A DNA stretch of 28,607 nt, from positions 1-28,607 of IMG/VR virus record IMGVR_UViG_3300032282_003029. One strand, 5' to 3'. This document shows, one piece after another, positions 1 through 28,607 of this stretch (its first letter is position 1; each line of letters starts with the position of its first letter). The notes under the pieces are model-generated. The model saw only the letters and a program-made list of their open reading frames with translations. It ran no database searches and had not been told where the DNA came from. The stretch is from a virus. The position numbers were made by a program, and so were the translations under genes.

Positions 1-912
1 ATGGGTGGCATTGCGGTCTATATCGATACGGAGAATGCAACAAATCCAGATACTCTCGCTAACATGGGTGTTGATGTGGCAAGAAGATTTGTATTCGTTC
101 AATCTCCATGCACAGAGGAAATCCTTTCTGTAATAGAAAGCACTATCCTCAAAGCCCGCACAATGACAAAAGACGTTCCCGTTACCGTTATATGGGATAG
201 CGTCTCTCAGTCTTCGCCAAAGGCTGAGTTAGAGGGCGACTATGATCAGAACACAATCGGTCTTCAAGCTCGTGTTCTATCAAAGGGTATGCGAAAGATT
301 GCCAACGTTATCGGTGGTCAGAAGGTTCTATTGGTTCTCGTTAGCCAACAGCGCCAGAAGATTGGTGTAATGTTCGGTGATCCAACAACTACATCTGGTG
401 GTATGGCAATACCATATTCTTCATCTGTCAGAATTCGTCTTGATGGCGGCTCTGCAATTAAGGATAAAGATGATAATGTTCTTGGCATTAACGTAACGGC
501 AAAGACCATTAAGAACAAGGTAGCAAAGCCTTTCCGTAAGGTTGGTTTCCGTATCTTGTTTGGACGTGGTATCTTTGAAGAAGAAGAGATATTTGATCTT
601 CTTCGTGAGCATTGTAAAAATGCAAAGAATGGCGTTATCGTAGGAGACAAGTCTGTATCCATTGCTGGAGATGGTGCTTGGAAGACCTTTACCGTAACTG
701 ACAATAGAACGGGTGAAGTAGGAACAGAAGTTAAATTCTATAAAAACGAGTTTGCACAGAAAGTTTTGAACAAGCCGGAATATTCAGAGTATGTTAACGC
801 CTTGATGGATGCTGCACTCATTATCAGCGGTAATGAGAAACCAGAGGAACATATCACGTATGAGGGTATGGCTGATGGTGATGTTAGAACCGCCGACGAG
901 TTAAGCGCCTGA
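1..912 (+). CDS. RecA/UvsX-type recombinase, N-terminus outside window
   Basis: This is an ATP-dependent strand-exchange protein for phage recombination and replication restart. The first visible residues (GGIAVYIDTENA) align to the RecA segment that follows Walker A (E. coli CAFIDAEHA), so the ATG at base 1 is an internal Met. About 70-90 residues, including Walker A, lie upstream of the window. Visible RecA signatures are the Walker B strand VTVIWDS near residue 62, SPKAELEG, the MRKIA helix, and the loop-2 region QQRQKIGVMFG followed by TTTSGG near residue 130. The motif KTIKNKVAKPF comes next. The acidic C-terminus ends in ELSA before TGA. The sequence is closer to bacterial RecA than to T4 UvsX by eye. 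dut and other DNA-metabolism genes follow on the same strand. The family call is firm; the orthology label is not. Confidence 0.95.
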   Translation: MGGIAVYIDTENATNPDTLANMGVDVARRFVFVQSPCTEEILSVIESTILKARTMTKDVPVTVIWDSVSQSSPKAELEGDYDQNTIGLQARVLSKGMRKIANVIGGQKVLLVLVSQQRQKIGVMFGDPTTTSGGMAIPYSSSVRIRLDGGSAIKDKDDNVLGINVTAKTIKNKVAKPFRKVGFRILFGRGIFEEEEIFDLLREHCKNAKNGVIVGDKSVSIAGDGAWKTFTVTDNRTGEVGTEVKFYKNEFAQKVLNKPEYSEYVNALMDAALIISGNEKPEEHITYEGMADGDVRTADELSA

Positions 913-943
913 TCATAACACACAACACATAACACCCCAAAAT

Positions 944-993
944 AAAGGCGGCAATCTAAACTTTAGAGATAGAGTTATAAGATTATCGCCTTT
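944..993 (+). terminator. Possible hairpin terminator between recombinase and dut genes
   Basis: AAAGGCG (944-950) pairs with CGCCTTT (987-993), and inside it AATC pairs with GATT after a 2-nt mismatch. The enclosed loop contains the small palindrome TCTAAA-C-TTTAGA. A T-rich run (TTTGTTCTTT) follows. The large loop makes this weaker than the other terminators in the window; it could also be a 5'-UTR structure of the dUTPase gene. Confidence 0.4.
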
Positions 994-1013
994 GTTCTTT
1001 CTACAGGAGAAAT

Positions 1014-1562
1014 ATGAGTAATAACAATATAAGTGATAGCATAGCACAGAGTTCATATAGAACCGTTGATAAAAACTGGTATGATCCTCAAATACCAAAG
1101 GTATCCAGAACAATCAATATCAAGTTTAAGCTAATGAATGAAAATGCCAAGCTCCCTCATGCAGTTAGAGATGGAGATATTGGTTTTGATGTTTATTGCG
1201 CTGAAAACATTAATGTTCCGGCTCATGGTTTTGCCAAATTGTCAACCGGTATTCAATTAGCAGATATGCCAATAATGGATAATGATCGTAATCGTATCTT
1301 TATGAAGATAGAGGGACGTAGTGGATTAGCCAGCAAGGGAGTATTTCCTGTTGGTGGCATTATAGATCCAAACTATCGTGGTGAGATAGGCGTTACCCTC
1401 GTTAATCATAGTGCTGCGGATATGGTATTTAGCGTTGGAGATCGTATTGCACAGTTGGTAGTTTACAAGGTATCTACTGCTGGTGAGGTATTAATGGTTG
1501 AGAGCGATAAGGTAACTGAAACCAATAGAGGTTCTGCTGGTTTTGGTTCGTCTGGCAAGTGA
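1014..1562 (+). CDS. dut: dUTP diphosphatase (trimeric dUTPase)
   Basis: Hydrolyses dUTP to dUMP and pyrophosphate, keeping uracil out of DNA and feeding dUMP to the thymidylate synthase encoded at 10490. All five motifs of the trimeric family are present in order: DGDIGFDVY near 53-61, GRSGLASKG at 101-109, GGIIDPNYRGEIG at 114-126, GDRIAQLV at 142-149, and the C-terminal Gly-rich RGSAGFGSSGK at 172-182. The last is the mobile arm that closes over the nucleotide. The protein has 182 residues, slightly longer than the usual 140-150 because of about 35 extra N-terminal residues without a recognisable domain. The start is fixed by the ribosome binding site AGGAGA at 1005-1010. The gene ends just before a strong hairpin terminator. 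Confidence 0.96.
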   Translation: MSNNNISDSIAQSSYRTVDKNWYDPQIPKVSRTINIKFKLMNENAKLPHAVRDGDIGFDVYCAENINVPAHGFAKLSTGIQLADMPIMDNDRNRIFMKIEGRSGLASKGVFPVGGIIDPNYRGEIGVTLVNHSAADMVFSVGDRIAQLVVYKVSTAGEVLMVESDKVTETNRGSAGFGSSGK

Positions 1563-1582
1563 AACATAAGAGATAAAAAAGA

Positions 1583-1620
1583 GAAACGCCGCTCGGGATT
1601 GATTTCCAGGCGGCGTTTTC
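1583..1620 (+). terminator. Rho-independent terminator after dut
   Basis: A nine-pair stem, AAACGCCGC (1584-1592) with GCGGCGTTT (1610-1618), is followed by TTTTC. It stops the dut transcript. It also shows that the open frame extending upstream of 1662 is not coding. Confidence 0.75.
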
Positions 1621-1661
1621 AATTGGTATATCAATTAAATCAGGTGGTATATGTTAAGTCT

Positions 1662-2672
1662 ATGTCCCAGCCAACCACAGAAAGACCGATAATAATCATC
1701 GACGCTTTTAACAATTTTCTTCGTCATTTTTTAGTTAATCAAGAAATAAATCTCCGTAGTCAGCCGGTTGGTGGAGTGGTTGGGTTCATGAAATCGGTTG
1801 ACTACCTTGTTGGAACCTTCTGCCCATCCCGTGTATACGTTGTCTGGGAAAACGGTGGTGCGTCTCAAAGGCGCAGACACATTTCCCCCGAATACAAGGC
1901 GAATAGAGCCAAGATGAAGGAAGTGAAGAAAATCCAACAAGGCAAGGAGAGCATACGGGATGTTTTGGCATTGGATGATGAAACAAGGGTTCAACAGATC
2001 ACCATGCTAACAGCTCTACTCAAGAGCACACCCGTATGTCAGATTTACGTGCAAGATACAGAATGTGATGATATAATTGCATATCTTGCTCAAGATAAAC
2101 TACGTAATGTAAACGCCAAAAAGATTATCGTTTCTAACGATAAAGACTTCTATCAGCTATTACATAATCCATTAATAGAAATATATGATCCTGCTACCCG
2201 TAAGATTGTAGATAGTAAAGAAGTTATTAATAAGTTTGGAATATCTGCAAGAAACTTTTGTTTAGCTAAAACCATAGCTGGAGATGATAGCGATAACGTA
2301 GCTGGTGTCCCTGGTGCGGGGTTCAAGACGGTAGCTAAACGATTTCCTAAAATGGCTTCCGAGGAAGAGGACGTAGATATAGCTACCATCATTTCAGAAG
2401 CCCGTGCTGCCAATATAGGAAAGAAGAAACCTATTGCCATATATGACCATATATCCCAATGTGAAGAGTTATTAAGACGTAATTGGGATTTGATGTATTT
2501 GAACAGTAGCAACATGAGTGCCAGTCAGATTAACAAAATAAATTACATTGTAGATAATCATGAACCCAAGATGGACAAGCTTGGATTGATTAAGACAGTT
2601 ATGGAATGCGGGATTAATACAACCTTTGATTATGACCGCTTTTGTTCTCAAATGCGTAATTTTATAAGGTAA
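1662..2672 (+). CDS. FEN/T5-D15-like 5'-3' exonuclease (RNase H role)
   Basis: Structure-specific 5' nuclease of the FEN/PIN superfamily that would remove RNA primers and flaps during phage DNA synthesis, like T4 RNase H or T5 D15. It is 336 residues from ATG 1662. Metal-binding motifs are visible: IIIIDAFN with Asp14, the acidic cluster DTECDD at 132-137, SNDKDF at 158-163 and GDDSDN at 207-212. The last is followed by GVPGAGFKT, the helix-hairpin-helix that tracks duplex DNA. The arch region has basic residues (RRRH near 70-73). The frame is open upstream to 1599, but that stretch is the dut terminator, so ATG 1662 is preferred. Its ribosome binding site is poor: AGGTGG at 1642-1647 is 14 nt away. 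GTG 1644 is an alternative start. Confidence 0.9.
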   Translation: MSQPTTERPIIIIDAFNNFLRHFLVNQEINLRSQPVGGVVGFMKSVDYLVGTFCPSRVYVVWENGGASQRRRHISPEYKANRAKMKEVKKIQQGKESIRDVLALDDETRVQQITMLTALLKSTPVCQIYVQDTECDDIIAYLAQDKLRNVNAKKIIVSNDKDFYQLLHNPLIEIYDPATRKIVDSKEVINKFGISARNFCLAKTIAGDDSDNVAGVPGAGFKTVAKRFPKMASEEEDVDIATIISEARAANIGKKKPIAIYDHISQCEELLRRNWDLMYLNSSNMSASQINKINYIVDNHEPKMDKLGLIKTVMECGINTTFDYDRFCSQMRNFIR

Positions 2673-2726
2673 TTTACGAGTTTAAATTAAATTTTGGAAT
2701 TGAGTAAAGTAAGGTAGAAAGAACCC

Positions 2727-4169
2727 ATGAGCGTAGTATTTATGAAAACGATGAGTGTTGAACAGACTAAACCGGAGCCCTCCAAGGCAGAAGCTGGAAA
2801 GCATTTCTCTTTTGACAAGAGCTTCCAAGAGAAGATTGTCCAAGCCTTCCTGATTGACAGGAACTGGGCATCTCAGTTTGCAGAAGTACTTGATGTGAAC
2901 TTTTTCCAGTTCGCATATCTCAAAAAGATTGCAGACACTTATATGTCTTATAACAAGAAATATAAGGAGTTCCCTTCAATGGCTCTACTTGCTCAGATTA
3001 TTGCTTCTGAGCTAAAGAATCCATCAGACGGCATTCTTCGTTCACAAATCCATGATTTCCTTCTACGTGTAGAAGAGAACAAGGATCTTGGTGATCTTGG
3101 TTATGTCAAGGAGAAATCACTTGACTTCTGTAAGCGTGCAGGGCTCCAGAAGGCTCTAGAAGCCTCCATTGAGTTCATTGAGACAGAGAAGTATGAGAAG
3201 GTTGTAGAAACCATTAAATCGGCTATTAATGCCGGTAATGAGCATTCCCCAGGTCTTGAACTTAGAGACGATGTTGATGCTCGTTATAGCGAAACCTTCC
3301 GCAGAACTGTAGCTACCGGCGTCAAACAACTTGATGAAAAGAAGATCCTTAATGGCGGTCTTGGTGCTGGCGAACTCGGTGTAATCATTGCTCCTACAGG
3401 GGTAGGTAAATCCCACCTACTTACCCACTTCGGGGCACAGGCTCTCCTTCAAGGCAAGAATGTATTGCATTATACGTTTGAGTTGAATGAGAGAGCTGTT
3501 GGTGTTCGTTATGACAGTCATTTGCTTGGTATTGACAGCATTGATTGTTATGACCACAAGGAACAGATCAAGAAGTATTATGAAGATAATGCAGAAACTC
3601 TTGGTCGTTTGAAGATCAAGTATTATCCAACTGGAACAGCAACAATCAATACCCTTCGTGCTCACATTGATAAGCTTGCAAATGAAGGTTTCCGCCCTGA
3701 CGTATTGGTTATTGATTACGCTGGTATTATGCGTTCTACAGAGAAGTATGAGCTTCTTCGTCTTGAACTAAAGAAGATTTACGAAGAACTTCGTGGCTTT
3801 GCTAATGAAGTAGATATTCCAGTATGGACAGCTTCTCAGTCAAATAAGGAAGGCGCTAACAAAGATTACGTTGACCTTACAAATATGGCAGAAGCTTATG
3901 GTCAGGCACACGTTGCGGACTTTGTTCTCGGTCTTGCAAGAAAGAGCATGAGCAAGAGCACAGGTTATGGCAATATCTTTATTGCAAAGAACAGAGCCGG
4001 TGTAGATGGTGTTCAATTCCAGATACACTTGGATACCGCCCGCTCTAAACTCCGTATTCTCTCTGAAGAAGAGTTTAATAAGATGAAGTCCGATCAGGAA
4101 GAACTTGAAGATGGTAATCTTAAGAACTTCTTCCGTGAGAAGATTAGAGATTTCCAGAAAAATCATTGA
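2727..4169 (+). CDS. Replicative DNA helicase, DnaB/gp41-like
   Basis: Hexameric replicative helicase of superfamily 4, 480 residues. The N-terminal third (about 30-170) is helical, as in DnaB. The RecA-like motor follows, with Walker A APTGVGKS at 222-229, the catalytic Glu in YTFELNE near 252, Walker B VLVIDYAG at 326-333, the sensor-like ASQSNKEG near 369-376 and the C-terminal KNRAG motif that corresponds to the arginine-finger region. There is no zinc-binding primase domain, so a primase should be encoded elsewhere in the genome. ATG 2727 follows AAGGTAGAAAGAA; Met6 and Met9 are alternative starts. The codon usage is rich in CGT and CTT, like the RNR genes downstream. Confidence 0.93.
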   Translation: MSVVFMKTMSVEQTKPEPSKAEAGKHFSFDKSFQEKIVQAFLIDRNWASQFAEVLDVNFFQFAYLKKIADTYMSYNKKYKEFPSMALLAQIIASELKNPSDGILRSQIHDFLLRVEENKDLGDLGYVKEKSLDFCKRAGLQKALEASIEFIETEKYEKVVETIKSAINAGNEHSPGLELRDDVDARYSETFRRTVATGVKQLDEKKILNGGLGAGELGVIIAPTGVGKSHLLTHFGAQALLQGKNVLHYTFELNERAVGVRYDSHLLGIDSIDCYDHKEQIKKYYEDNAETLGRLKIKYYPTGTATINTLRAHIDKLANEGFRPDVLVIDYAGIMRSTEKYELLRLELKKIYEELRGFANEVDIPVWTASQSNKEGANKDYVDLTNMAEAYGQAHVADFVLGLARKSMSKSTGYGNIFIAKNRAGVDGVQFQIHLDTARSKLRILSEEEFNKMKSDQEELEDGNLKNFFREKIRDFQKNH

Positions 4170-4177
4170 GGTGTTAT

Positions 4178-5158
4178 ATGTCCCTATTAGATCGTCGCAT
4201 CAATTACAAGCCATTTTCATATCCACAAGCGCATGACTATTGGCTTAAGCAGCAGCAAGCACATTGGCTCTCTTCTGAGGTTACTCTTAATCAAGACCTT
4301 CTTGATTGGAATATGAACCTTACCCCCTCAGAGAAGTCTATCATCGGCGGCATTCTAAAGGGATTTACACAAACCGAAATCTTTGTCAACGATTATTGGT
4401 CAAATAAAGTAGGTCGTTGGTTCCAGCATCCAGAAGTTGTAATGGCTGCTACAACTATGGCTTCTTTTGAAACCATCCACACTCAAGCCTATTCCTTACT
4501 TGATGAAACTCTTGGATTTGCCGATTATAAGGCTTTCCTTGCAGAGCCAACCATTAAGGCAAAGATTGATCGTCTTGTAGAAACTGGAAATATTGATACA
4601 ACCAATATGACCACAGAAAAGAAGATGATTATGGCTAAGTCTCTTGCTGTATTCTCTGCTTTTACAGAAGGCGTCTCTCTTTTCTCTTCATTTGCTGTTC
4701 TTTTGCATTTCTCTCGTTATAATAAGATGAAGGGCATGAGCCAGATTGTTACATGGAGCATAAAGGATGAAACGTTGCATTCGGAGTTTGGTTGTTATTT
4801 GTTTAGAACATTTATTGAAGAAAATCCGGAAATCTGGACCGACGAGTTCAAAAAAGAAATCTACCAAGCAGCAAGAGATACTGTGGCTTTAGAAGATAAC
4901 TTTATTGATAAGGTCTTTGAACATGGAAACATTGAAGGTCTTAGCAAGGAAGATTTGAAAGATTTCATTCGCCACCGCACAAATATGCAACTTGGAAAAC
5001 TGGGTTTAAAACAAAACTGGAAGAATGTAGACAAGGAATCATTGAAGCGTATGGAATGGTTTGACGCTATTGGTGCTGGAGTTAGACTTGATGATTTCTT
5101 CAGCGTTAAGCCAACGGACTATAGCCGTGGAGTTGTAAATTTTGATGAAATGTTTTGA
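4178..5158 (+). CDS. nrdB: Class I ribonucleotide reductase, small (radical) subunit
   Basis: The ferritin-like R2 subunit holds the dimetal-tyrosyl radical that activates the NrdA partner for NDP reduction. It is 326 residues from ATG 4178, with GAGGTG at 4168-4173 as ribosome binding site. Candidate metal ligands keep the E. coli spacing: E67, E98, H101, E164, E198 and H201. Tyr105 lies four residues after H101, exactly where the radical Tyr122 follows H118 in E. coli. The C-terminus (GVVNFDEMF) is the expected acidic-aromatic tail that docks on NrdA. The last codons overlap the start of an HNH endonuclease gene. The order nrdB-endonuclease-nrdA shows an insertion between two co-transcribed subunits. 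Confidence 0.95.
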   Translation: MSLLDRRINYKPFSYPQAHDYWLKQQQAHWLSSEVTLNQDLLDWNMNLTPSEKSIIGGILKGFTQTEIFVNDYWSNKVGRWFQHPEVVMAATTMASFETIHTQAYSLLDETLGFADYKAFLAEPTIKAKIDRLVETGNIDTTNMTTEKKMIMAKSLAVFSAFTEGVSLFSSFAVLLHFSRYNKMKGMSQIVTWSIKDETLHSEFGCYLFRTFIEENPEIWTDEFKKEIYQAARDTVALEDNFIDKVFEHGNIEGLSKEDLKDFIRHRTNMQLGKLGLKQNWKNVDKESLKRMEWFDAIGAGVRLDDFFSVKPTDYSRGVVNFDEMF

Positions 5159-5699
5159 TCCGCAAACCTTAATAGGCAATAAATTCAAACGTTTTATCGT
5201 GACAGAATATCTCGGTAGGAATGAACACAAAAGACATTTATATAAATGTTTATGCGAATGTGGTAAAGAAAAAGTTGTTACGAAAGATAATTTGTTTAAC
5301 AAAACAGGAAGTTGTGGTTGCTTAAAACGAGATTTAAACCTTAAAAATAAAGGAGTAACAATAGAAGAACGGTGCATTAAAGGATTATATAGCCGGTATG
5401 TTGCTCATGCAAAAAATAAAAATGTTCCGTTTGATTTGACATATGAAGACGTAAAATATCTTATATTTTCAAATTGTTTTTATTGTAACTCGCCACCAAA
5501 AGGAAAGTTTCTTCAAAAAAGAAAATATGAACAAAGAGCTATATGTTATAATGGAATTGACGAAGCTAATATTGGGCAAGGATACACTAAAGATAATGCT
5601 TTGAGTTGTTGTTGGACTTGCAATGATTTAAAAAGCAACAGAGATAAAGAAGATTTTCTAAATTTGATTAGAACGATATATATTAACTGTTTAGGGTAA
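5145..5699 (+). CDS. HNH-type homing endonuclease inserted between nrdB and nrdA
   Basis: 184 residues. The N-terminal zinc-binding module has C35, C37 and C39 followed by SCGCL at 56-60, a type often seen at the front of phage HNH/AP2 homing endonucleases. A central helical region is followed by a treble-clef HNH-like domain: CFYC at 111-114, YNGIDEANIGQGYT near 135-148 and CCWTCN at 155-160. The usual NGIDR Arg is Glu here. The start overlaps the nrdB stop by 14 bp. No good ribosome binding site is seen (GGAG is about 13 nt away), so translation probably couples to nrdB. Its codons are AT-richer (ATA, AAA, TTA) than both flanking nrd genes, which fits lateral arrival. The function is family knowledge; the target site is unknown. 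Confidence 0.87.
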   Translation: MKCFDPQTLIGNKFKRFIVTEYLGRNEHKRHLYKCLCECGKEKVVTKDNLFNKTGSCGCLKRDLNLKNKGVTIEERCIKGLYSRYVAHAKNKNVPFDLTYEDVKYLIFSNCFYCNSPPKGKFLQKRKYEQRAICYNGIDEANIGQGYTKDNALSCCWTCNDLKSNRDKEDFLNLIRTIYINCLG

Positions 5700-8127: not shown

Positions 8128-9039
8128 ATGTATGAAGATTTAAAAAAACTTCTTGAATATCTTATAGAAGAAGAGTTAGAAGAACAAAATGCTTTAGGTG
8201 GTGGTGGAGTGGGAGCTACATCATCCGGTTTAGCATTGGATGCAACTAAGTTTAGACCACCTCCAAAAAAGAAACTTGAAGAAGTAAATACCGTATTCGG
8301 TTCATATGACTTATTTTCCGCAATGGAAGATAATAATAGCGGATTTGATTCTATTGATGAAAATGAAAACAATTTTGGAGAAGACAAGGGAGATGATTCT
8401 GAAACTCCAGACTCCAAATCAAAGAAAAACAAATCACAACATCATATCAAAAAAAATCACAAAAATAACAAAAAGAAAAATATATACACAGATATAATGT
8501 GGAAATATGCCGATCTTCCAACAGGGCAATTGCCACAATTGAAATATACTGCTTTGGAAGAACAAGCTGTTCCAAAAAAGAAAGCTGATAGAGTCCGTAT
8601 ATTTCAAGATAAAGGTCATCCAATGAAACAACAATCATTGGAGGTTTTGATTGATTTTATAAAGTTCTGCAATAGTATTCTTAAATTAGAAGATATGCCA
8701 GACATATATCTTCACACAGTTAAAAAGAAGGATATGACAACTGGTATGTATAATCGTGGTGAGCACATGATCCACGTATTAGTTGGCAAACGTCTTTTAG
8801 TAGATGTTTTAAGAACGATTGCTCATGAGTTGACCCATGCTCGTCAAGAAGAAGCAGGATTACTTGATAAGCATTTAGCAAATGTTGATCCTATGGACGA
8901 GATGGGAGACATAGACACAATATATGAGAATGAGGCTTATACGTTAGCTGGCAATATTGTAAAAATCTTCTGCCGCAAGTATCCAAAGATATCAAAAGAC
9001 GAACTTTATCAGCTTAATGAAGCACGTAAAAAATTGTGA
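8128..9039 (+). CDS. HExxH zinc metallopeptidase-like protein with possible capsid-targeting N-terminus
   Basis: 303 residues. The C-terminal domain holds a zincin motif, AHELTH (H233, E234, H237), with a downstream YENEAY in which E267 or E269 could be the third ligand. This is the layout of small gluzincin-like peptidases. The first 16 residues form an acidic amphipathic helix with LLEYLIEE. A Gly-rich linker and a long Asp/Glu/Lys/Asn-rich disordered segment (about 50-120) follow. The N-terminal helix resembles T4 internal-protein capsid-targeting sequences, which end in phi-x-E, and similar helices occur in the proteins at 24059 and 26037. No Shine-Dalgarno is seen; an AATATTTAA box lies a few bases before ATG. 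The exact peptidase family is unrecognised and the substrate is unknown. Confidence 0.7.
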   Translation: MYEDLKKLLEYLIEEELEEQNALGGGGVGATSSGLALDATKFRPPPKKKLEEVNTVFGSYDLFSAMEDNNSGFDSIDENENNFGEDKGDDSETPDSKSKKNKSQHHIKKNHKNNKKKNIYTDIMWKYADLPTGQLPQLKYTALEEQAVPKKKADRVRIFQDKGHPMKQQSLEVLIDFIKFCNSILKLEDMPDIYLHTVKKKDMTTGMYNRGEHMIHVLVGKRLLVDVLRTIAHELTHARQEEAGLLDKHLANVDPMDEMGDIDTIYENEAYTLAGNIVKIFCRKYPKISKDELYQLNEARKKL

Positions 9040-9085: not shown

Positions 9086-9865
9086 ATGAAAAAGGTGTTA
9101 TTGGGTTTATTGGTAGGGATGGCGCTATTATTTAGTTGCCATAGTAGTGCGCCTGTCCGTAGAGACAGAGGAAGTCCGCCGCTGGAAACTGCTGTAAGAG
9201 CAACGGTTGCCTTCGTAGAAAATAGAATAGAAACTGCCGCTGATCAAACCGCACAGGTATATTGCAGCGGCTTTTTTGTTTCTGAAACAACAATCGTAAG
9301 TGCATTACATTGTTTCCAAAGTATGCGTCTTGTTCGTTTGGGAGAATCGGTTGTTCAAATACCAACCATCCTCAATCCAACTGGAAACGTAGTTCAATTT
9401 GTAAGATATGGTGATATCAATATGCTAAATCGTCGCTTCATCAATGACGAACTTAATGAAGCAAGAGTAGCTTATATTGATTCAGCAAACGATCTGGCTA
9501 TATTAGAAATTCAGGAAAATACAAGAAGATCAGATTATAGCCTAATCATCCAAGTAGGAAATCCGGAGATAGCTCAAAGAGTATATTTGGTTGGGCATCC
9601 ACTTGAGTTAGTTTGGTCCGTAGTAGATGGCATAGTATCCAGAAACATTATTGTTGATGGTGAACTAGTCAATATACAAGCTTCTATACCTCTTATTGGA
9701 GGTTTCTCTGGTGGACCATTATTGCTTCCAAATGGTAGAGTGATTGGCGTTGCAAGTTTATATATTGGCAATATGCATCACTTATCAATATTTGTTGCTC
9801 CACGTCCTATTGTTAATGGATTATTTAAATATGAAATGAGTAGAAATCACGAAACACGTAGATGA
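9086..9865 (+). CDS. Lipoprotein trypsin-like serine protease
   Basis: 259 residues. The N-terminus is a lipoprotein signal: MKK, a hydrophobic stretch GLLVGMALLF, then a lipobox ending in Cys18. Residue +2 is His rather than Asp, so in a Gram-negative host the outer membrane would be the default destination. The rest is a chymotrypsin-fold protease with an intact triad: H75 in VSALHCF, D136 in SANDLAIL and S208 in GGFSGGPL. GRVIGVAS follows the nucleophile as in the V8/HtrA-like group; no PDZ domain is present. It is unusual for a phage to encode an exported lipidated protease. A role in changing the infected cell surface (superinfection exclusion) or in defence is inference. A GGGGG run at 9075-9079 precedes the ATG. 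Confidence 0.85.
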   Translation: MKKVLLGLLVGMALLFSCHSSAPVRRDRGSPPLETAVRATVAFVENRIETAADQTAQVYCSGFFVSETTIVSALHCFQSMRLVRLGESVVQIPTILNPTGNVVQFVRYGDINMLNRRFINDELNEARVAYIDSANDLAILEIQENTRRSDYSLIIQVGNPEIAQRVYLVGHPLELVWSVVDGIVSRNIIVDGELVNIQASIPLIGGFSGGPLLLPNGRVIGVASLYIGNMHHLSIFVAPRPIVNGLFKYEMSRNHETRR

Positions 9866-13663: not shown

Positions 13664-14752
13664 ATGGGCTTTAAACTAATAACACGAGAAGAGTTAGATT
13701 TAATGCAACAAAAGAAAACAAAGAAGAGGAGTAAAGTGATGACTAAGCTTGGAAAAGGTTTAGACGTTGGAACGTCATTTGTCGTTTTAGCATCTGAACA
13801 AGAAGAAGGATCGGTTCAATATAAAGATTTTCGTGATGCTTTCTATTTGATTAAGCCATCAACCCCAATCGCTGCAAAGATGATTGAAAAGGGTCTTATT
13901 GGCAAGACATTCGTGAAAGACACGGATGGTTCATTCATTCTACTTGGCAAGGATGCTATTGAAAAGGCAGTAGAACGTAATGATAGCGCCAAACGTCCAA
14001 TGTATCGTGGCGTAGTTTCCAGCAAGGAAAAGGATGCACGTAAAGTTCTATCCTATATCCTCAAGGAAGTAGCTGGAACACCAACAGAACAAGGAGAAAA
14101 GCTTGTATTCTGTATTCCTGCACAACCGATTGATCAAGATGATGAAGACTTTGACGTTGGATATCACGAAGACGTTGTAAAGAAAGTTCTATCTGACGTT
14201 GGTTATGCTCCAAGAGCTATTAACGAAGCAGAAGCCCTTTGTTACTCAGAACTTGAGAACGATGATTATACCGGCGTTGCTCTATCATGGGGTGCGGGTA
14301 TGGTTAACGTCTGCGTAATGCTCAACGGTGAACCTGTATTGACCTTCTCTACTACAAAGAGCGGTGACTGGATTGATCGTATGTCTGCTGTTGCTACAGG
14401 TCAAACAGACAGCATTGTCCAGGCTGAAAAGGAAGAAGGCGACTTCACCATCGGTCAACCAAACGATAATCAAATCCTCGCAGCAGTGGCAGCTTATTAT
14501 GAGCGGCTTATTGACTATACCACCAAACAACTTGCCGCTGCACTCTCAGACCACAAGGATCTTCCAAAGTTTAAGGACGCTCTTCCAGTTGTAGTAGGTG
14601 GTGGAACTACACAGGCTAAGGGTTTCGTATCTACATTCGCAAGAAAGCTTGAAGCTAATGGTTTCCCTGTTGCAGTTAAAGAAGTAAGACACGCTTCTGA
14701 CCCTCTTCATGCGGTTGCACGTGGCTGCTTGATTGCTGCACAAATACTCTGA
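13664..14752 (+). CDS. Actin/Hsp70-superfamily ATPase-like protein (ParM-like)
   Basis: 362 residues. Motifs follow the actin-ATPase fold: phosphate-1 GKGLDVGTS at 31-38, a strand KLVFCIPAQ near 146-154, the connect helix NEAEALCYSEL near 187-197, phosphate-2 VALSWGAGMVNV at 205-216 and the adenosine motif VVVGGGTTQAKG at 309-320. In phosphate-2 the usual Asp is Ser208, so ATP hydrolysis may be altered. Two starts have good ribosome binding sites: ATG 13664 (AGAGGA at 13651-13656) and in-frame ATG 13739 (AGAGGAG at 13725-13731), just before the fold begins. The first 25 residues are basic. A phage filament for DNA positioning or a chaperone are both possible. I cannot assign a named family. 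Confidence 0.75.
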   Translation: MGFKLITREELDLMQQKKTKKRSKVMTKLGKGLDVGTSFVVLASEQEEGSVQYKDFRDAFYLIKPSTPIAAKMIEKGLIGKTFVKDTDGSFILLGKDAIEKAVERNDSAKRPMYRGVVSSKEKDARKVLSYILKEVAGTPTEQGEKLVFCIPAQPIDQDDEDFDVGYHEDVVKKVLSDVGYAPRAINEAEALCYSELENDDYTGVALSWGAGMVNVCVMLNGEPVLTFSTTKSGDWIDRMSAVATGQTDSIVQAEKEEGDFTIGQPNDNQILAAVAAYYERLIDYTTKQLAAALSDHKDLPKFKDALPVVVGGGTTQAKGFVSTFARKLEANGFPVAVKEVRHASDPLHAVARGCLIAAQIL

Positions 14753-22193: not shown

Positions 22194-22671
22194 GACGAAA
22201 ATATCATTACCCATTTTACCTGAGCGCAAATGTGGCAATTGTCAAAAATGTTGTGAAGGTTGGTTAGAAGCTGACATATATGGAAATAAAATGCAAGCTG
22301 GACAGCCGTGCTTCTATCTTGAAAAAGGAGAAGGCGGCTGTTCTATTTATGAAAATCGTCCTAAAGATCCTTGCATAGATTATAAATGTGCATGGTTAGA
22401 AGAACCTGGCACATTTCCAGCATGGCTTAAACCAAATCTATCAAATGTCATTATAACAAAAAAAACAATTGAAGATACAGATATTAGCTATTATCAAGCT
22501 GTAGAGGCTGGAAGTAAGATGGATGCATCTGTTTTGCATTGGTTTATGATGTTTGCATTGAGAACTGGAACTTGCATAATGTATGAAATAGAAGGAAAAT
22601 CTCATACGTTAGCCAGTCCTCAATTTGATGCCGCTTATAATGCCGCTGTTCAAAGAAAAAAGAATTCTTAA
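22192..22671 (+). CDS. YkgJ-like Cys-cluster protein
   Basis: 159 residues. An N-terminal Cys cluster, CGNCQKCC at 14-21, is followed by spaced Cys in PCFYLEKGEGGCSIYENRP, PCIDY and KCAW. This matches the YkgJ/UPF0153 family, thought to bind zinc or an Fe-S cluster. The C-terminal half is mixed alpha/beta with no motif. ATG 22192 is used rather than the overlapping GTG 22189. It ends at a strong terminator. Possible roles in protein or sugar modification are unproven, and the phage role is unknown. Confidence 0.8.
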   Translation: MTKISLPILPERKCGNCQKCCEGWLEADIYGNKMQAGQPCFYLEKGEGGCSIYENRPKDPCIDYKCAWLEEPGTFPAWLKPNLSNVIITKKTIEDTDISYYQAVEAGSKMDASVLHWFMMFALRTGTCIMYEIEGKSHTLASPQFDAAYNAAVQRKKNS

Positions 22672-22681
22672 TTGAGAAATA

Positions 22682-22713
22682 AAAAAGGGAAGGTCGCAAG
22701 ACCTTCCCTTTTT
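22682..22713. terminator. Strong bidirectional terminator between convergent genes
   Basis: AAAAAGGGAAGGTC (22682-22695), a GCAA tetraloop and GACCTTCCCTTTTT (22700-22713) form a perfect 14-bp stem. The A-run and T-run flank it on both strands. It serves the plus gene ending at 22671 and the minus gene ending at 22734. Confidence 0.95.
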
Positions 22714-22733
22714 CTTTTTAGTTATCTATTATT

Positions 22734-23384
22734 TCAGCGAATGGGCTTACCATTTGGAAGACGGAATTCCGTTTCAATCTTGAATTCGGCATGGAAACTT
22801 GGAATACCAACGTGATTGACGAGATTGTGCTTAAGAGCCTCATTAGCGTCAAGGAACCAATCGGCGTGCTTCTTCTGATGAACAAGCTCGAGGAAATAGT
22901 CTTCCTTGTGTCCGCAGTTCTTTGCCATTGTTCGAAGAATAGCCTCATTCAAACGATCCGTCTCGGCGGCGTTTGACTTAATCTCTTCATTCTTGCCCCA
23001 ACCCATGCTGGATACTTCATGGATCATTACGGTAGCTGATGGAGCACAGAAACGATATCCTTCTGCACCACAAGTAAGAAGAACAGCGCCACATGACATA
23101 GCCTTGCCTTCTACAATGGTAGCTACCTTAACCTTACAAGCATTAATCATATCAACCATAGCAAGAAGCGAATAGACTTCGCCACCGTAGCTATCAATGA
23201 TAATCGGCAAGATTTCCTGCTTTGCCTTTACGCAATGATCTTCTGCTGCTTCCAACTCTTCGCAGAACTTATTTGCTGTTTGTTCTGTAAAGGGACCAGA
23301 GAACTTGATATAGATCGGCATATAACACGCCGACTCAATATCCTTAACTCTTACTCTTTCGTCTACATTAACTGTATATCTCAT
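22734..23384 (-). CDS. ClpP-like serine protease
   Basis: 216 residues of the ClpP/crotonase fold. IIIDSYGGEVYSLLAMVDMI near 61-80 is the oxyanion strand and helix. The nucleophile is S97 in GKAMSCGAVLL and His122 lies in ATVMIHEVSS. Asp175 in HADWFLDANEAL is the likely third residue; EALKHNLV is the usual ending. It could degrade host or phage proteins with a host Clp ATPase, or act in capsid maturation as some phage S14-type proteases do. Its place beside a DnaQ-like nuclease gives no clue. AAGGAAG upstream, with an ATGA overlap to the upstream gene, sets the start. Confidence 0.9.
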   Translation of the reverse strand: MRYTVNVDERVRVKDIESACYMPIYIKFSGPFTEQTANKFCEELEAAEDHCVKAKQEILPIIIDSYGGEVYSLLAMVDMINACKVKVATIVEGKAMSCGAVLLTCGAEGYRFCAPSATVMIHEVSSMGWGKNEEIKSNAAETDRLNEAILRTMAKNCGHKEDYFLELVHQKKHADWFLDANEALKHNLVNHVGIPSFHAEFKIETEFRLPNGKPIR

Positions 23385-23965
23385 TTGTTACTTCCTTTGA
23401 TTAGTTGTGTCATATGTTGCAATACTTTTAGGGTCAAATCAGCGTCATAACTGGCTTCATGCCGTTTGCTTTCATCTACGTCAATCATCATAGCAGAAGC
23501 CATTTCAGAGAGACTGTAAGCATTGAGCTTAGGAACTATTCCAGTAAGAGCAAGAAACTTACCAATTGATGCAGTATCAATATGTCTGCGATCAAAATAA
23601 CGGTCCCAATCTTCTAGGATATGGGTTTTAACAAACTTTACATCAAAACGGACATTATGACCAATTGGTGTTAGTTTTTGATTAAGGGACCATCCACAAA
23701 TATAGTTTTTAAAGCGGGTTTTAACTTCAGAAATAGGTTTTGCTACACGATCATGCTCTGAGATATTAATACGGTTAATACTAAGACCTTCAGCACTTAG
23801 ATGATATATACCATCATCGGGCTTAATCTTTAAATCAATTGTATCCAGAATCTTAAGGTTTTCGTCAAGAATATGTCCATAAAGAGTTAGGAGGCTCATT
23901 TCTTTACGAACACCACCTGTTTCTGTATCGAACAAGAAATATTTAGGATTGTCTATTGTTGCCAT
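23381..23965 (-). CDS. DnaQ/RNase T-like 3'-5' exonuclease
   Basis: 194 residues of the DEDD superfamily. FLFDTETGG at 10-18 supplies D13 and E15. IGHNVRFDVKF in the middle supplies the HNxxFD motif. HEASYDADLTLKVL near the C-terminus gives the HxxxxD (DEDDh) motif. It may proofread replication, or trim DNA or RNA ends. ATG 23965 is chosen over an in-frame GTG five codons upstream; neither has a clear ribosome binding site. It is the first gene of the two-gene minus-strand operon, across from the plus-strand gene at 24059. Confidence 0.9.
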   Translation of the reverse strand: MATIDNPKYFLFDTETGGVRKEMSLLTLYGHILDENLKILDTIDLKIKPDDGIYHLSAEGLSINRINISEHDRVAKPISEVKTRFKNYICGWSLNQKLTPIGHNVRFDVKFVKTHILEDWDRYFDRRHIDTASIGKFLALTGIVPKLNAYSLSEMASAMMIDVDESKRHEASYDADLTLKVLQHMTQLIKGSNK

Positions 23966-24058
23966 ATATCCATCATACACTCATGGATTAAAAATATAAA
24001 GACTATTTTGCTTTTATGGAACGCTACCAATTAAGAGATAGATAATTAAGAATATCCC

Positions 24059-25357
24059 ATGACCAAAAAAACAAATCTGCAAAAACTATTAGAAGCTATG
24101 ATGATGAATAATGCCGGTCCTAACTTTTACGGCAATCCATCATTTGGTGGCACAGGCAACTATGGCATGGGCGGTTATACCCAATTAGCTCATTTCGGTC
24201 TTAATCCAGCAACTGAAGCTATAGCAGATCAAGAACAAGAAGAACTTGAACAAAACATAGAAGATCAAGAGTGGATTAATAACAAGTATCGTAGAGGATT
24301 TGGATTTAATGCAGATGAAGATCCAGTACCACATTGGAATGGTAGAGTTGGTTCTGTAGAAACTGTCGCTGAGAGTGCTCCTTATGATAACTCAGTTTCT
24401 CGCATGAGAGATTTGCCTGGTTTCCCAGCACCCAATACTCTCGTTGAACCTAAAACGTTTACTCCGCAAAATGCTGGAGCAGATTATGAAAATCCAATTG
24501 ATGGACGTAAAGTAGAATACTTGGGTCCAACCCTTAATGGTGTTGAGTTAGATGACGCAACAGGTAATTTCTCCGCTTTGGCTTTAGAACTATCTGAAGA
24601 ATTAATCGGCAAAAGAATCAAGAAACTAACAGATCCAGATAAAGAGTTGAATAAGTTGATTGGTCCGGATCCAGATATAGATGATGAAACGGAACATAAA
24701 GAAGATGCTGCCGAAATAATACTTTATGATTTGATAAAGGAATTGGCAAAACAATACATTAATGAAATTCTTGGTGCTCCAAAAGCTACAACTCCAGATC
24801 GTTTAGGTTGGAATAATACCCGAACAAATTCACTAGCTGCCTGGAGAAACCATATTAGTCCAGATCAACCTCCAACAGAAACATGGCGTCCACAGTTTGG
24901 AGAGAATGCAGAACAAAATCCTCCTGTAGATTATGTACCGGCTCAAAAAAGTCCGTTAGGAGGATTTGGTTCAATTGGTTGGCCAAAGCAATTTGTTCCA
25001 GCAGACTATGAGGCTACCTTTGGTCAAGACGAAGGATTTGGCGAAGATTTGTTAGGCGCAAGAAGATTAAGACAGTCTCCTACAGATGATGATCGTGTTG
25101 GAGTTAATGCAAGTATAAGAGAGGCACATATGAAACAGTTAGAAGCCCTATTAGAATATCTTTTGAATGAAGAAGTCCTTAACGAAGGAATAGATGAAGG
25201 GGAGAATGCTCCAACCAATCCAAGCCTTTGGAGCCGTGCAAAGGCTCAGGCTAAGAAAAAGTTTAAGGTATACCCATCTGCTTATGCAAATGCATGGGCA
25301 TCTAAATGGTATAAGGGTAAAGGCGGGGGCTGGCGTAAGAAAGGTAAGAAAAAATGA
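24059..25357 (+). CDS. Large low-complexity protein, probable head-associated protein
   Basis: 432 residues, not in a family I can name. The N-terminus (LQKLLEAMMMNN) is a helix with an LLE-A site at 10-13, followed by Gly/Asn/Tyr-rich sequence (FYGNPSFGGTGNYGMGGY). Pro/Asn/Gln-rich, acidic and probably disordered regions follow, then a second helix LLEYLLNEEVLNEG near 383-396. The end holds a short basic domain (KKFKVYPSAYANAWASKW, then GKGGGW), a type I recall from other large phages and giant-virus proteins. The layout suggests internal head or scaffold-associated protein. A GIY-YIG gene starts within its stop codon (ATGA). Confidence 0.6.
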   Translation: MTKKTNLQKLLEAMMMNNAGPNFYGNPSFGGTGNYGMGGYTQLAHFGLNPATEAIADQEQEELEQNIEDQEWINNKYRRGFGFNADEDPVPHWNGRVGSVETVAESAPYDNSVSRMRDLPGFPAPNTLVEPKTFTPQNAGADYENPIDGRKVEYLGPTLNGVELDDATGNFSALALELSEELIGKRIKKLTDPDKELNKLIGPDPDIDDETEHKEDAAEIILYDLIKELAKQYINEILGAPKATTPDRLGWNNTRTNSLAAWRNHISPDQPPTETWRPQFGENAEQNPPVDYVPAQKSPLGGFGSIGWPKQFVPADYEATFGQDEGFGEDLLGARRLRQSPTDDDRVGVNASIREAHMKQLEALLEYLLNEEVLNEGIDEGENAPTNPSLWSRAKAQAKKKFKVYPSAYANAWASKWYKGKGGGWRKKGKKK

Positions 25358-26034
25358 ACGAAGACTTACGCAAGTGGTTTTATGTTTATGCCTTGGTAAA
25401 TCCAATTAATAACGTTATATTTTATATCGGCAAAGGATCTAAAAGCAGAGCATATGATCATTTAAAACCATCTGGTTGGGGCAATAATCTTCATAAAAAA
25501 CATACAATTGAGAACATTAGATCATGTGGAAAAGAACCTTTAGTGATGTTTTTACATGAAAATTTAGAAGAGCACGTTGCTTTCCAACTTGAAATAGAAG
25601 AAATTAAAAAACATAAAGAACTTGGGTTTAAACTTACAAACATGACTGATGGCGGTGATGGTGGTCCTAAAAGATTTGGTAGTAGAAGTATAGAGGAAAG
25701 AAGATACGTATCTCAAAAAACAAAAGAAGCAATGTGGAAATCAGATACAAGACAAAGACATTTGCAATCAATACAAAGTGATTTAAATAGAAAAAATCTC
25801 AAAGAAGCTCAGAAATTAAAAATTAATGCAAATCCCGATTGGCATAAAAAATTTACTAAATCAAATTACAATGAAGAATATAGAACTCGTAAAATCATTA
25901 GAGACGATGGAATGATATTTAATTCGGCTGAAGACGTTGCTAAACACTACAATACCAATCTAAGCGTTATAGTAAGGCACCTTTTAGGAAAAAGAAAAAC
26001 TTATAAAAAATATGTTTTTAAATTCGTGGATTGA
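25354..26034 (+). CDS. GIY-YIG homing endonuclease between two structural-type genes
   Basis: 226 residues. The nuclease domain has YVY at 10-12, YIG at 24-26 and Arg32 (KSRAYDHL). The C-terminal domain IRDDGMIFNSAEDVAKHYN plus VRHLLGKRKTYKKYVFKF is a NUMOD1-like helix-turn-helix for DNA contact. The middle is basic and helical (YVSQKTKEAMWKSDTRQRH). The start overlaps the preceding stop by ATGA. Codons are AT-rich (AAA, ATA). The N-terminal GIY region differs from the endonuclease at 11681, so the two are not recent duplicates. Confidence 0.88.
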   Translation: MNEDLRKWFYVYALVNPINNVIFYIGKGSKSRAYDHLKPSGWGNNLHKKHTIENIRSCGKEPLVMFLHENLEEHVAFQLEIEEIKKHKELGFKLTNMTDGGDGGPKRFGSRSIEERRYVSQKTKEAMWKSDTRQRHLQSIQSDLNRKNLKEAQKLKINANPDWHKKFTKSNYNEEYRTRKIIRDDGMIFNSAEDVAKHYNTNLSVIVRHLLGKRKTYKKYVFKFVD

Positions 26035-26036
26035 TT

Positions 26037-27320
26037 ATGGAAAAATTAATTGAAGAAATAATTGAAGAAATATATCACAATTCTGGGCTTGGCAAATGGT
26101 TTTCTCAAGACTGGAAAGATATTAGCCGCAAGAAAAAAAGCGGTGGACACCCAGCTTGTGGCGCTTCCGCTGATAAAGGTGTAAGAGCAAAGGATAGCTC
26201 ACGTAAATATCCAAAATGTGTTCCAGCAAACAAGGCTAAGAATATGAGCAAAAAAGAAAAGCAAAATGCTGTAAGAAGAAAGCGTCGTGCTCCAAATGAG
26301 CCAGGTTCTCCAGATAACGTTAAGACCAAAGTTCAAAAGGAAAACTGGGAAAAGTGGCATCCATCAAGAGATAAAATTTATTCTCATGGAGTTCCAAGCA
26401 ATAACGCTCCTGAGAATCCAGAGCCTATGGGCGGTGCAATAGCCTTTGAAAAAAGCCGTGAAGAAGTTCTTTCTCAACTTAAAGAATATATTCAATATTT
26501 GATTAAAGAGGCAACTATGCCTGCTCGTCCAGCAGCTATGCGTGGATTTGGAGCTCCTCAACAAGATCCTCGTGCAACTCAAGAAAATGCAATCAATAAT
26601 ATTGATGACGCAATAGCTCTTCTTAATAAGAATGATAAAGAGTTGACCCCTGAACAAAAAACAAATTTAGAAAATTTCGTTGTCAAATATGCTTATGACA
26701 CAATTGGCACTAAAAAAACTCCAATGTATAGACAAGAAGATTTAGATAGAATGTCTGATAGTCTTGGATATGGAAATTTTACCGGTATAATAAATGATAA
26801 AATTCCTAACATGACAGAAAAAGGTGGTCAAATATTTAGTGCTCTAGAATTATATGACGGTAAAAGAGCATTCGCAGGACGTAAACAACCAGCTCTTTCT
26901 GCTGGCATTAAAGGCGCCGCTTCGCCAAAACAACAAAGCGTAGACGTATCTAAAACTGTTGAAGTTTTAAAATCAAAAGAAGTTCAAGATGCAATTCAAG
27001 GATATATTGAAAAGTTGAAAGCCGCTGGAGTTTCAAGCCCAGAGATATCAAAAAGAATTGCTGACTTGGGAGGAATGATTGATCCAAACTATCCAACAGC
27101 TTTAGCAGCGTCTACGATTAAAGGATTAGACCCTCGTTATCTTGGACCTCCACAAGTTTCACCAGAAGAAAAAAACGTATTTCAAAAAGTCAAAGGTTTC
27201 TTCGGATTGAATGAAGAAGAAACAAAACAATTGATGGAAAGCTATAATATCAGAACTCAAAAAGATTTTGATATCTTAGTAGAAGCCGTTGTTCAAGTAA
27301 TCCTTAAGGAAGGTAAATGA
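26037..27320 (+). CDS. Large protein with Cys/Lys-rich N-terminal domain, probable head-associated protein
   Basis: 427 residues from ATG 26037. Residues 2-13 form an acidic helix (EKLIEEIIEEIY). Residues 18-90 form a Cys/Trp/Lys domain (GLGKWF, WKDISRK, GGHPACG, YPKCVP, then RRKRR), a type I recall in large phages and giant viruses. The helix LKEYIQYLIKEATMPARP near 157-175 is followed by Ala/Pro-rich and helical regions. The C-terminus (FDILVEAVVQVILKEGK) is again a helix. The gene was probably next to the one at 24059 before the GIY-YIG gene was inserted. No enzyme motif is visible, and a structural or internal-head role is inferred. Confidence 0.6.
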   Translation: MEKLIEEIIEEIYHNSGLGKWFSQDWKDISRKKKSGGHPACGASADKGVRAKDSSRKYPKCVPANKAKNMSKKEKQNAVRRKRRAPNEPGSPDNVKTKVQKENWEKWHPSRDKIYSHGVPSNNAPENPEPMGGAIAFEKSREEVLSQLKEYIQYLIKEATMPARPAAMRGFGAPQQDPRATQENAINNIDDAIALLNKNDKELTPEQKTNLENFVVKYAYDTIGTKKTPMYRQEDLDRMSDSLGYGNFTGIINDKIPNMTEKGGQIFSALELYDGKRAFAGRKQPALSAGIKGAASPKQQSVDVSKTVEVLKSKEVQDAIQGYIEKLKAAGVSSPEISKRIADLGGMIDPNYPTALAASTIKGLDPRYLGPPQVSPEEKNVFQKVKGFFGLNEEETKQLMESYNIRTQKDFDILVEAVVQVILKEGK

Positions 27321-27321
27321 T

Positions 27322-27819
27322 ATGGATGATTGGGAAGCAAAGTATTGGGCAAATAGAGCGGCACAAATCCAACAGCAGCCACAACGCCCACAATATCACC
27401 AACAACCTACACGTCCTCAAATGCCAGAGGTAGACGTTGCTGGTATGCTCATGCAAAGAGCTATGATGCAACAACCAACTTCTCCTGGTGCGGTATACCT
27501 CCGTGAAGGCGCAAACTATTATCGTCAAATACAAAATCCAGATGGATGGGGAACCACAACTACTCTTATCCGTAGTATGGGTGCATTATCTGGAGTAGCC
27601 AATAAAGAGTTTGCTATAATGGGAGAGATGCGAGCCTACTGTGTGGATGACTTACCGTCTATAGATTTATCTAAAATCAACGAGCAGCCTCAAAGAATGA
27701 AAGATTTAGTAAGAGTAAGAGCTCCATTTGCAGGAGATTTGTTAGTTGAACGTTCCGCTATCGTAAATGGCGGCGGAAACAATACGTCATATGGTGGAAA
27801 AAGCTTATTGAAGGGTTGA
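27322..27819 (+). CDS. Gln/Pro-rich protein of unknown function, probably virion-associated
   Basis: 165 residues. The first 40 are Gln/Pro-rich (QIQQQPQRPQYHQQPTRP), likely unstructured. The rest is a mixed fold with YLREGANYYRQIQNPDGWG near 58-76 and a Gly-rich tail (NGGGNNTSYGGKSL). No family is recognised. Its ATG follows the previous stop by one base, with AAGGAAGG upstream, and it lies in the same structural-type block. Confidence 0.7.
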   Translation: MDDWEAKYWANRAAQIQQQPQRPQYHQQPTRPQMPEVDVAGMLMQRAMMQQPTSPGAVYLREGANYYRQIQNPDGWGTTTTLIRSMGALSGVANKEFAIMGEMRAYCVDDLPSIDLSKINEQPQRMKDLVRVRAPFAGDLLVERSAIVNGGGNNTSYGGKSLLKG

Positions 27820-27826
27820 GGAATAT

Positions 27827-28607
27827 ATGACAAAGAGGGCGCTTGTATTAAGTGGTGGTGGAAGTAGGGGAGCCTATCAAGTTGGTGCAATACAAGCGTT
27901 ATTAGAAGCTGGAAGAACATGGGATACAGTTCATGGCATTTCTGTTGGTGCCCTCAATGCTTCTTGGATTGCAATGCACTCCCCAATTGAACAACCTCAC
28001 AGCGTCGGCGGCTTATTAGATATCTGGAACAACATAAATACTTCCGATGATATCTACACACGTTGGAACCCTGTTAAACCTATCAACTATCTTTATTCAA
28101 TGTGGAAAGGTTCTCTGCATAGCGGGCAACCTTTAAAGAATATTGTTGACAAGTTTCTCATTAGAGAGAAGATGATATCAAGCGGCGTTAAACTTACTGT
28201 AGGTTGCGTAAACCTCAATACTACAGAATATACCGTAATACATGGGGATAATCCTGCAATAAAAGATTTTATATTAGCTTCCAGCCACTTGCCACTCGTC
28301 TTTGAACCAATAGATTTATATGGAGAAAAATGGGTAGACGGTGGTATACGTCACCAGATCCCAATTTATGAAGCTCTTAAAGAACGTCCAGATGAAATAG
28401 ACGTTATACTCACTTCCCCTATAGCCATTAGAGATCGTATGTTGCCAGCTACAAATCTCACAAGCGCCCCTAGAGTGGCTTTAAGGGCTTCCGAAATAAT
28501 GAGCGACCAGATTTATCTTATGGACTGCTATACCGTTCTAAGAGCCGCTAAGACGCTGGAAAACGTAAAGATTAATGTCTATATCCCAAGCGTATCCCCA
28601 AATCAAA
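27827..28607 (+). CDS. Patatin-like phospholipase, C-terminus beyond window
   Basis: The open frame runs from ATG 27827 (GAGGA at 27818-27822) to the end of the window, 260 codons without a stop. LSGGGSRGAYQVG at the N-terminus is the oxyanion-hole loop. GISVGALNAS contains the catalytic Ser in GxSxG. WVDGGIR holds the second catalytic residue, Asp of the DG[GA] motif. This is the Ser-Asp dyad of patatin/phospholipase A2-like lipid acyl hydrolases. No signal peptide is seen. Roles in membrane damage at lysis or in lipid remodelling of infected cells are inference. Confidence 0.9.
   Translation, partial: MTKRALVLSGGGSRGAYQVGAIQALLEAGRTWDTVHGISVGALNASWIAMHSPIEQPHSVGGLLDIWNNINTSDDIYTRWNPVKPINYLYSMWKGSLHSGQPLKNIVDKFLIREKMISSGVKLTVGCVNLNTTEYTVIHGDNPAIKDFILASSHLPLVFEPIDLYGEKWVDGGIRHQIPIYEALKERPDEIDVILTSPIAIRDRMLPATNLTSAPRVALRASEIMSDQIYLMDCYTVLRAAKTLENVKINVYIPSVSPNQ

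Follow-up and report, generated by a model that had tools for sequence, protein, structure and literature searches.

A phage zincin with an N-terminus resembling the cleavage junction of the major capsid protein: a putative internal head protein of a T4-superfamily phage

The window analyzed in this study is the whole 28,607-nucleotide stretch of viral DNA, not the feature under study, which is an open reading frame at 8128-9039 on the plus strand. Its product is a tag-bearing metallopeptidase of 303 amino acids whose first residues are MYEDLKKLLEYLIEEELEEQNALGGGG and whose N-terminal sequence is MYEDLKKLLEYLIEEELEEQNALGGGGVGATSSGLALDATKFRPPPKKKLEEVNTV... The start of this ORF is supported by the fact that M1 was aligned across all homologues. 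The gene order in the window is NrdA, an amidase and then the tagged metallopeptidase, and in G001, G002 and G004 a PAP2 gene comes directly next (the PAP2 label is a reading of the encoded sequence). Directly after the metallopeptidase, 9086-9865 encodes a trypsin-type protease with a signal-peptide-like start that is kept in relatives. The RecA and NrdA genes of G001 (L002 348-2083, 6391-9204) carry intein- or intron-like inserts, and the window's NrdA and partial RecA do not have them. Elsewhere in the window, 13664-14752 encodes an actin-like protein that matches Volactin (PF25216, E 9.4e-63) and has counterparts in related phage contigs. A GIY-YIG-like ORF at 25354-26034 starts with MNEDLRKWF. 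In relatives (G003 21049) the neighbouring 26031 protein begins with these residues, and the ORF has the appearance of a homing endonuclease that has inserted at the beginning of the 26031 gene.

The sequence-only reading of this locus had described an N-terminal helix, a Gly-rich stretch and then an HExxH enzyme, and this layout was recovered. AlphaFold2 modelling with seven sequences gave a helix at residues 3-23 (8134-8196; low confidence), disorder to about residue 150 and a compact domain at about 155-298, with a mean pLDDT of 52 and values of about 65-82 for most of the catalytic part. The helix, a putative leader or propeptide, carries the conserved LKKLLEYLxEEELEEQ. After it come a G/S/A-rich arm and then a basic patch, PPPKKK (together residues 21-49, 8188-8274), and farther on lies a divergent, low-complexity linker with predicted disorder (residues 57-150, 8296-8577). 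The catalytic domain (residues 155-298, 8590-9021) contains the zinc-binding motif HELTH at residues 233-237 (8824-8838), and all five of its residues, H233-E234-L235-T236-H237, are invariant in the alignment. E267 and E269 are also invariant and are candidate third zinc ligands. A conserved HExxH with a downstream Glu is the combination looked for in a zincin, and the metallopeptidase is a zincin. Foldseek searches placed the model nearest to phage IrrE N-terminal-like proteins in BFVD (E 1.5e-7, 28-30% identity) and matched PprI in the PDB (8sln, E 8e-3), which suggests a tentative assignment to M78 (IrrE/ImmA) as the nearest group by fold. Pfam matches to DUF6782 and DUF3920 were below cut-off, no Pfam or NCBIfam family was found above cut-off, and a sequence search of the PDB gave no match. 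VIA-align mainly returned M1 aminopeptidases (Z 8-10) from the low-confidence model, and this would support a zincin fold only.

The full architecture recurs in homologues from G001-G004, L289/L290 and L291 and in a more distant one from G011. In all full-architecture homologues the leader and two short islands are kept and the linker drifts. The pN/pS values were 0.34 for residues 1-34 (the tag), 0.29 for residues 50-55, 0.81 for residues 56-120 of the linker and 0.20 for the enzyme domain. Homologues made up of the enzyme domain only, with no tag, occur in Synechococcus phage S-SRM01 (132 aa), G009 and G007. These bare enzymes suggest that the N-terminal part is an addition in the window's clade.

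Residues 3-42 of the metallopeptidase family resemble the propeptide end, cleavage junction and N-terminal arm of the gp23-type major capsid proteins (MCPs) of related phages, and in the window protein the stretch that matched in profile and BLASTP comparisons is residues 3-34 (8134-8229). When the metallopeptidase N-termini were compared with the MCP junction using hhalign, the result was 96.8% over 40 columns (E 2.1e-10), and column shuffling gave at most 1.5% in 40 shuffles. BLASTP of the window protein against the G013 MCP found 14 of 31 residues identical (E 9e-5), with LEE19/QNALGGGG over LREQNTLGGGG and E19 over the MCP Glu (a slash marks the cut), and the L291 metallopeptidase matched the L223 MCP at 20 of 38 residues (E 7e-10). 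The similarity spans the cut and takes in the preceding helix as well as the following arm. BLASTP with the MCP was limited to this N-terminal stretch, and the capsid domain after the junction is absent, residues 155-298 being zincin-like with HExxH. The window sequence scored 17.1 bits compared to 8.8 for the best of 20,000 shuffles, and eight of eight homologues outscored their shuffles (about 4,000-4,900 scored for each).

Searches with profiles gave the same picture in both directions. When 2019 ORFs were searched with an HMM of 53 MCP junctions, the metallopeptidase N-termini came next in rank after the MCPs themselves, with the match at residues 17-34. With an HMM of 98 junctions and 4361 ORFs, the non-MCP matches at E < 0.03 were six metallopeptidases (all those in the set), a 204-aa protein of G010 and one 93-aa protein, all of them N-terminal matches; no unrelated Gly/Ser-rich N-terminus in the 4361 ORFs matched the junction equally well. 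The reverse HMM, made from metallopeptidase N-termini, recovered the metallopeptidases themselves and the G010 protein (1.4e-8), and then only MCPs at the junction (E 1.4e-6 to 0.15), with unrelated proteins beginning at E 0.35. When whole records were searched with an MCP N-terminus, the start of a metallopeptidase was matched in G029 (E 8.6e-6) and weakly in G028, and the second cargo, the family of the G010 protein, in G025 and G027. A tag profile built from nine sequences, to which the second cargo family contributed three, was used in a six-frame search of 37 large phage records. In 26 records it matched an MCP-sized frame at the junction, three (G010, G022, G011) had tagged cargo, and the remaining matches had E >= 0.0055. 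A tblastn search of the tag against isolated phages gave no match. It should be noted that a regular expression for the MCP site alone was unspecific (30 non-MCP matches compared to 25 expected on shuffling all proteins), and the case therefore rests on the longer profile. As judged from these alignments and profiles, the N-terminus of the metallopeptidase is related to the junction module of the clade's MCPs.

The junction of this MCP group, LLENQAxQxL[RK]E/[ASQ]N[ST]LSTGGGxLxSSG[DQ], is common to more than 100 MCPs. In T4, gp21 cuts after L/I-x-E and gp23 is a known substrate (PMC9026906). In a MAFFT alignment the Glu of the junction falls on the L-T-E/A site of T2 gp23, and we infer the cut position in the clade's MCP from this alignment. 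The first predicted prohead-protease site of the window protein, L17-E18-E19/Q20 (8176-8187), lies over the LRE/Q of the MCP and, by way of the MCP alignment, the LTE/A of T2 gp23. The second predicted site, L50-E51-E52/V53-N54-T55-V56 (8275-8295), fits the MCP rule L-x-E/x-N-[ST]-[LIV]. At this site the homologues have LEE/VNSL, LNE/INLV, LTE/INTV, LEE/INSY and LNE/ANSV, and L50, E52 and N54 (L-x-E/x-N) are invariant in eight homologues. Positions P3, P1 and P2' are fixed and P2 and P1' vary, as would be expected of recognition by a protease. A weaker third candidate, L143-E144-E145/Q146 (8554-8565), has A142-L143-E144-E145 invariant in seven homologues, but the residues downstream do not fit the MCP rule. 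Site similarity and conservation point to cuts after E19 and E52. However, L-x-E is a loose motif, and the farthest homologue (G011) has V-K-E instead of L-x-E at site 1, both of which count against these predictions.

The second cargo was found in G010 (119 kb), a record that carries both an MCP and an S77 protease. Its gene order, NrdB-NrdA-PAP2 followed by the tagged 204-aa protein, is much like the order in the window. This protein has no HExxH and its N-terminus is ELEEAMGISTGGASLASSGQIGGG; the tag has 12 residues, STGGASLASSGQ, in common with G010's own MCP. A recent origin of the G010 tag by copying of MCP DNA is unsupported, as the DNA is identical at only 25 of 36 positions over the identical 12-mer. 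In L295 and L296 a relative of the 204-aa protein comes immediately behind NrdA, and in L297 one follows PAP2. By these matching gene orders, two unrelated proteins with one kind of tag share a gene neighbourhood.

One caveat is that the MCP and prohead protease genes are missing from the window and from its nearest relatives, all of which are fragments, so that the window phage's own MCP and protease are unseen. The window is linked to these genes by synteny and by genes in common with G010 and others. In the larger relatives the gp23-type MCP corresponds to phrog_138 (E 1.4e-72) and the S77 prohead protease to phrog_207 (E 1.3e-48), the latter being found in G007, G009, G010, G013 and G014. 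Additionally, the metallopeptidase gene lies among replication and nucleotide genes, outside the head cluster, and most large relatives in the 37-record search are without tagged cargo. Both of these observations count against a packaging role, as does the possibility that an MCP-like arm has a purpose other than packaging.

With these points weighed, the product of 8128-9039 is probably a zincin that is fused to an MCP-junction module and serves a T4-superfamily phage as an internal head protein; it would be packaged, cut and possibly ejected. In the proposed mechanism, the helix-plus-arm module would bring the enzyme into the prohead core, where the S77 prohead protease would cut after E19 and E52. 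This would remove the leader and a G/S-rich, basic peptide and leave residues 53-303. In the last and least certain step, the mature enzyme would stay with the DNA, be ejected and cleave a protein of the host soon after infection begins. The ejection of T4 Alt and internal proteins (IPs), and the injection that has been proposed for zincin domains of polyvalent proteins, make such a delivery plausible by analogy. The more specific proposal, that the phage's own MCP cleavage junction has been re-used as a portable loading and trimming tag on unrelated cargo after nrdA, and that the cargo in the window is a host-delivered protease, is a possibility that we rate just short of even.

The sequence-only reading had proposed head loading and a cut by a T4-type prohead protease, and this part is strengthened by the MCP-like junction, the second conserved site, the protease in syntenic relatives and the tag on another protein. 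Its details did not hold: the cuts are likely to follow E19 and E52, not residues 10 and 14, and the leader does not look like a T4-type capsid-targeting sequence (CTS). The LLE at 8-10 and LIE at 12-14 on which it relied are both present in the product, and L9-E10-Y11-L12 and E15 are conserved. However, about 71% of shuffles of the 20-residue N-terminus hold at least two [LI]xE, at least one occurs within the first 20 residues of 22% of 2019 phage ORFs, and in a search for a leader of the MKTxxEF... kind the metallopeptidase showed no similarity to the N-termini of T2 Ip4, Ip5 and Ip7, which carry T4-type leaders. The frequency of the motif in shuffles and the lack of similarity to the T2 proteins make that evidence weak. 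An L/I-x-E-terminated leader is present as LEE19 and LEE52, both in an MCP-like context, and with the MCP-like junction at residue 19 a T4-type CTS cut after residue 10 or 14 is very improbable. A chance likeness between a Leu/Glu helix with a Gly/Ser-rich stretch and the MCP junction is equally hard to credit; the region is short and of low-complexity composition, but every control disfavours chance, including the shuffles, the direct BLASTP matches and reciprocal matches that were near-exclusive in 4361 ORFs and 37 records.

The same tag evidence would also fit an enzyme that is packaged and processed but acts within the head, as a second maturation or core-clearing protease with no ejection, and zincin domains have been proposed to process multidomain injected proteins (PMC5512222). 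However, the large records G013 and G014 have an MCP and a protease of this type but no match to the enzyme. This suggests that it is probably dispensable for head maturation, and we consider a role in the head unlikely. If the N-terminus were instead an auto-inhibitory pro-region that the enzyme removes itself, its MCP likeness would be inherited from a fusion and have no packaging role. A long disordered pro-region with flanking L-x-E sites would agree with this, but the same module is found on the 204-aa protein without HExxH, and the residues kept at site 2 are those that are constant at the MCP cleavage site, which makes self-removal quite improbable.

The reading as a packaged and processed head protein has precedents, since CTS-tagged internal head proteins are already known in T4 and P1. 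In T4 a ten-residue CTS packages IPIII, and Alt and the IPs are ejected (PMC9026906). The gp21-cut IPI-IPIII and Alt are like the window enzyme in that a phi-x-E-ended leader is attached to non-structural cargo and the phage group has an S77 protease. They differ from it in that the cargo here is a metallopeptidase; also, the T2 Ip leaders had no significant match to T2 gp23, whereas the window leader resembles its clade's MCP junction on both sides of the cut. With T4-type gp23 itself the window protein has in common the helix, L-x-E/[QASV]-N-[ST]-[LIV] and a G/S/T-rich arm, but this is only a short module with no capsid fold after it. Capsid targeting of phage P1 DarB depends on its first 30 residues (PMC9024508), and the Dar proteins likewise have an N-terminal cargo-packaging signal, though in a different head system. 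Zincin-like domains also occur in polyvalent proteins, for which entry into the host together with the phage DNA has been proposed (PMC5512222). The polyvalent proteins were inferred from context and have several domains each, whereas the window protein has a single enzyme domain and a head-protease-type tag. Its nearest fold matches are IrrE/ImmA-like (M78) proteins and PprI, although no Pfam or NCBIfam family exceeded its cut-off. In the open-access literature searched, we found no description of unrelated cargo that carries a tag like the phage's own MCP junction, with the likeness extending across the cut.

Other proteins of these phages have leaders or termini of related appearance. Runs of small proteins that each start with MKITxRQLRRIIRE(E/A), a leader that also ends in I-x-E, occur in related phages (G013 22207-28242; G014 174207-176597; G010 70772-71319; G004 179-5603; G017 65362-65951). 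A tblastn search of a related MKIT leader against isolated phages gave no match, and a text search of the literature found no mention of the motifs. In the window, the product of 24059-25357 starts with a similar helix (MTKKTNLQKLLEA) and has LEALLEYLLNEEVLNEG in its interior, immediately ahead of a DUF5872-like C-terminus; this product may be another processed head protein. The C-terminus of the 27322-27819 product, DLLVERSAIVNGGGNNTSYGG, is a weak match to the MCP junction (E 0.28-0.83) that is kept in relatives, and a C-terminal cut is possible there.

If the proposal put forward here is true, N-termini that mimic a phage's own MCP junction would provide a sequence rule for recognizing packaged and possibly injected proteins in uncultivated T4-superfamily phages, with the exact mature N-termini, Q20 and V53 in this protein, predicted in advance. 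The module would also be a natural tag for loading proteins into heads, and the window's metallopeptidase would be an early-acting phage protease with a host target to seek.
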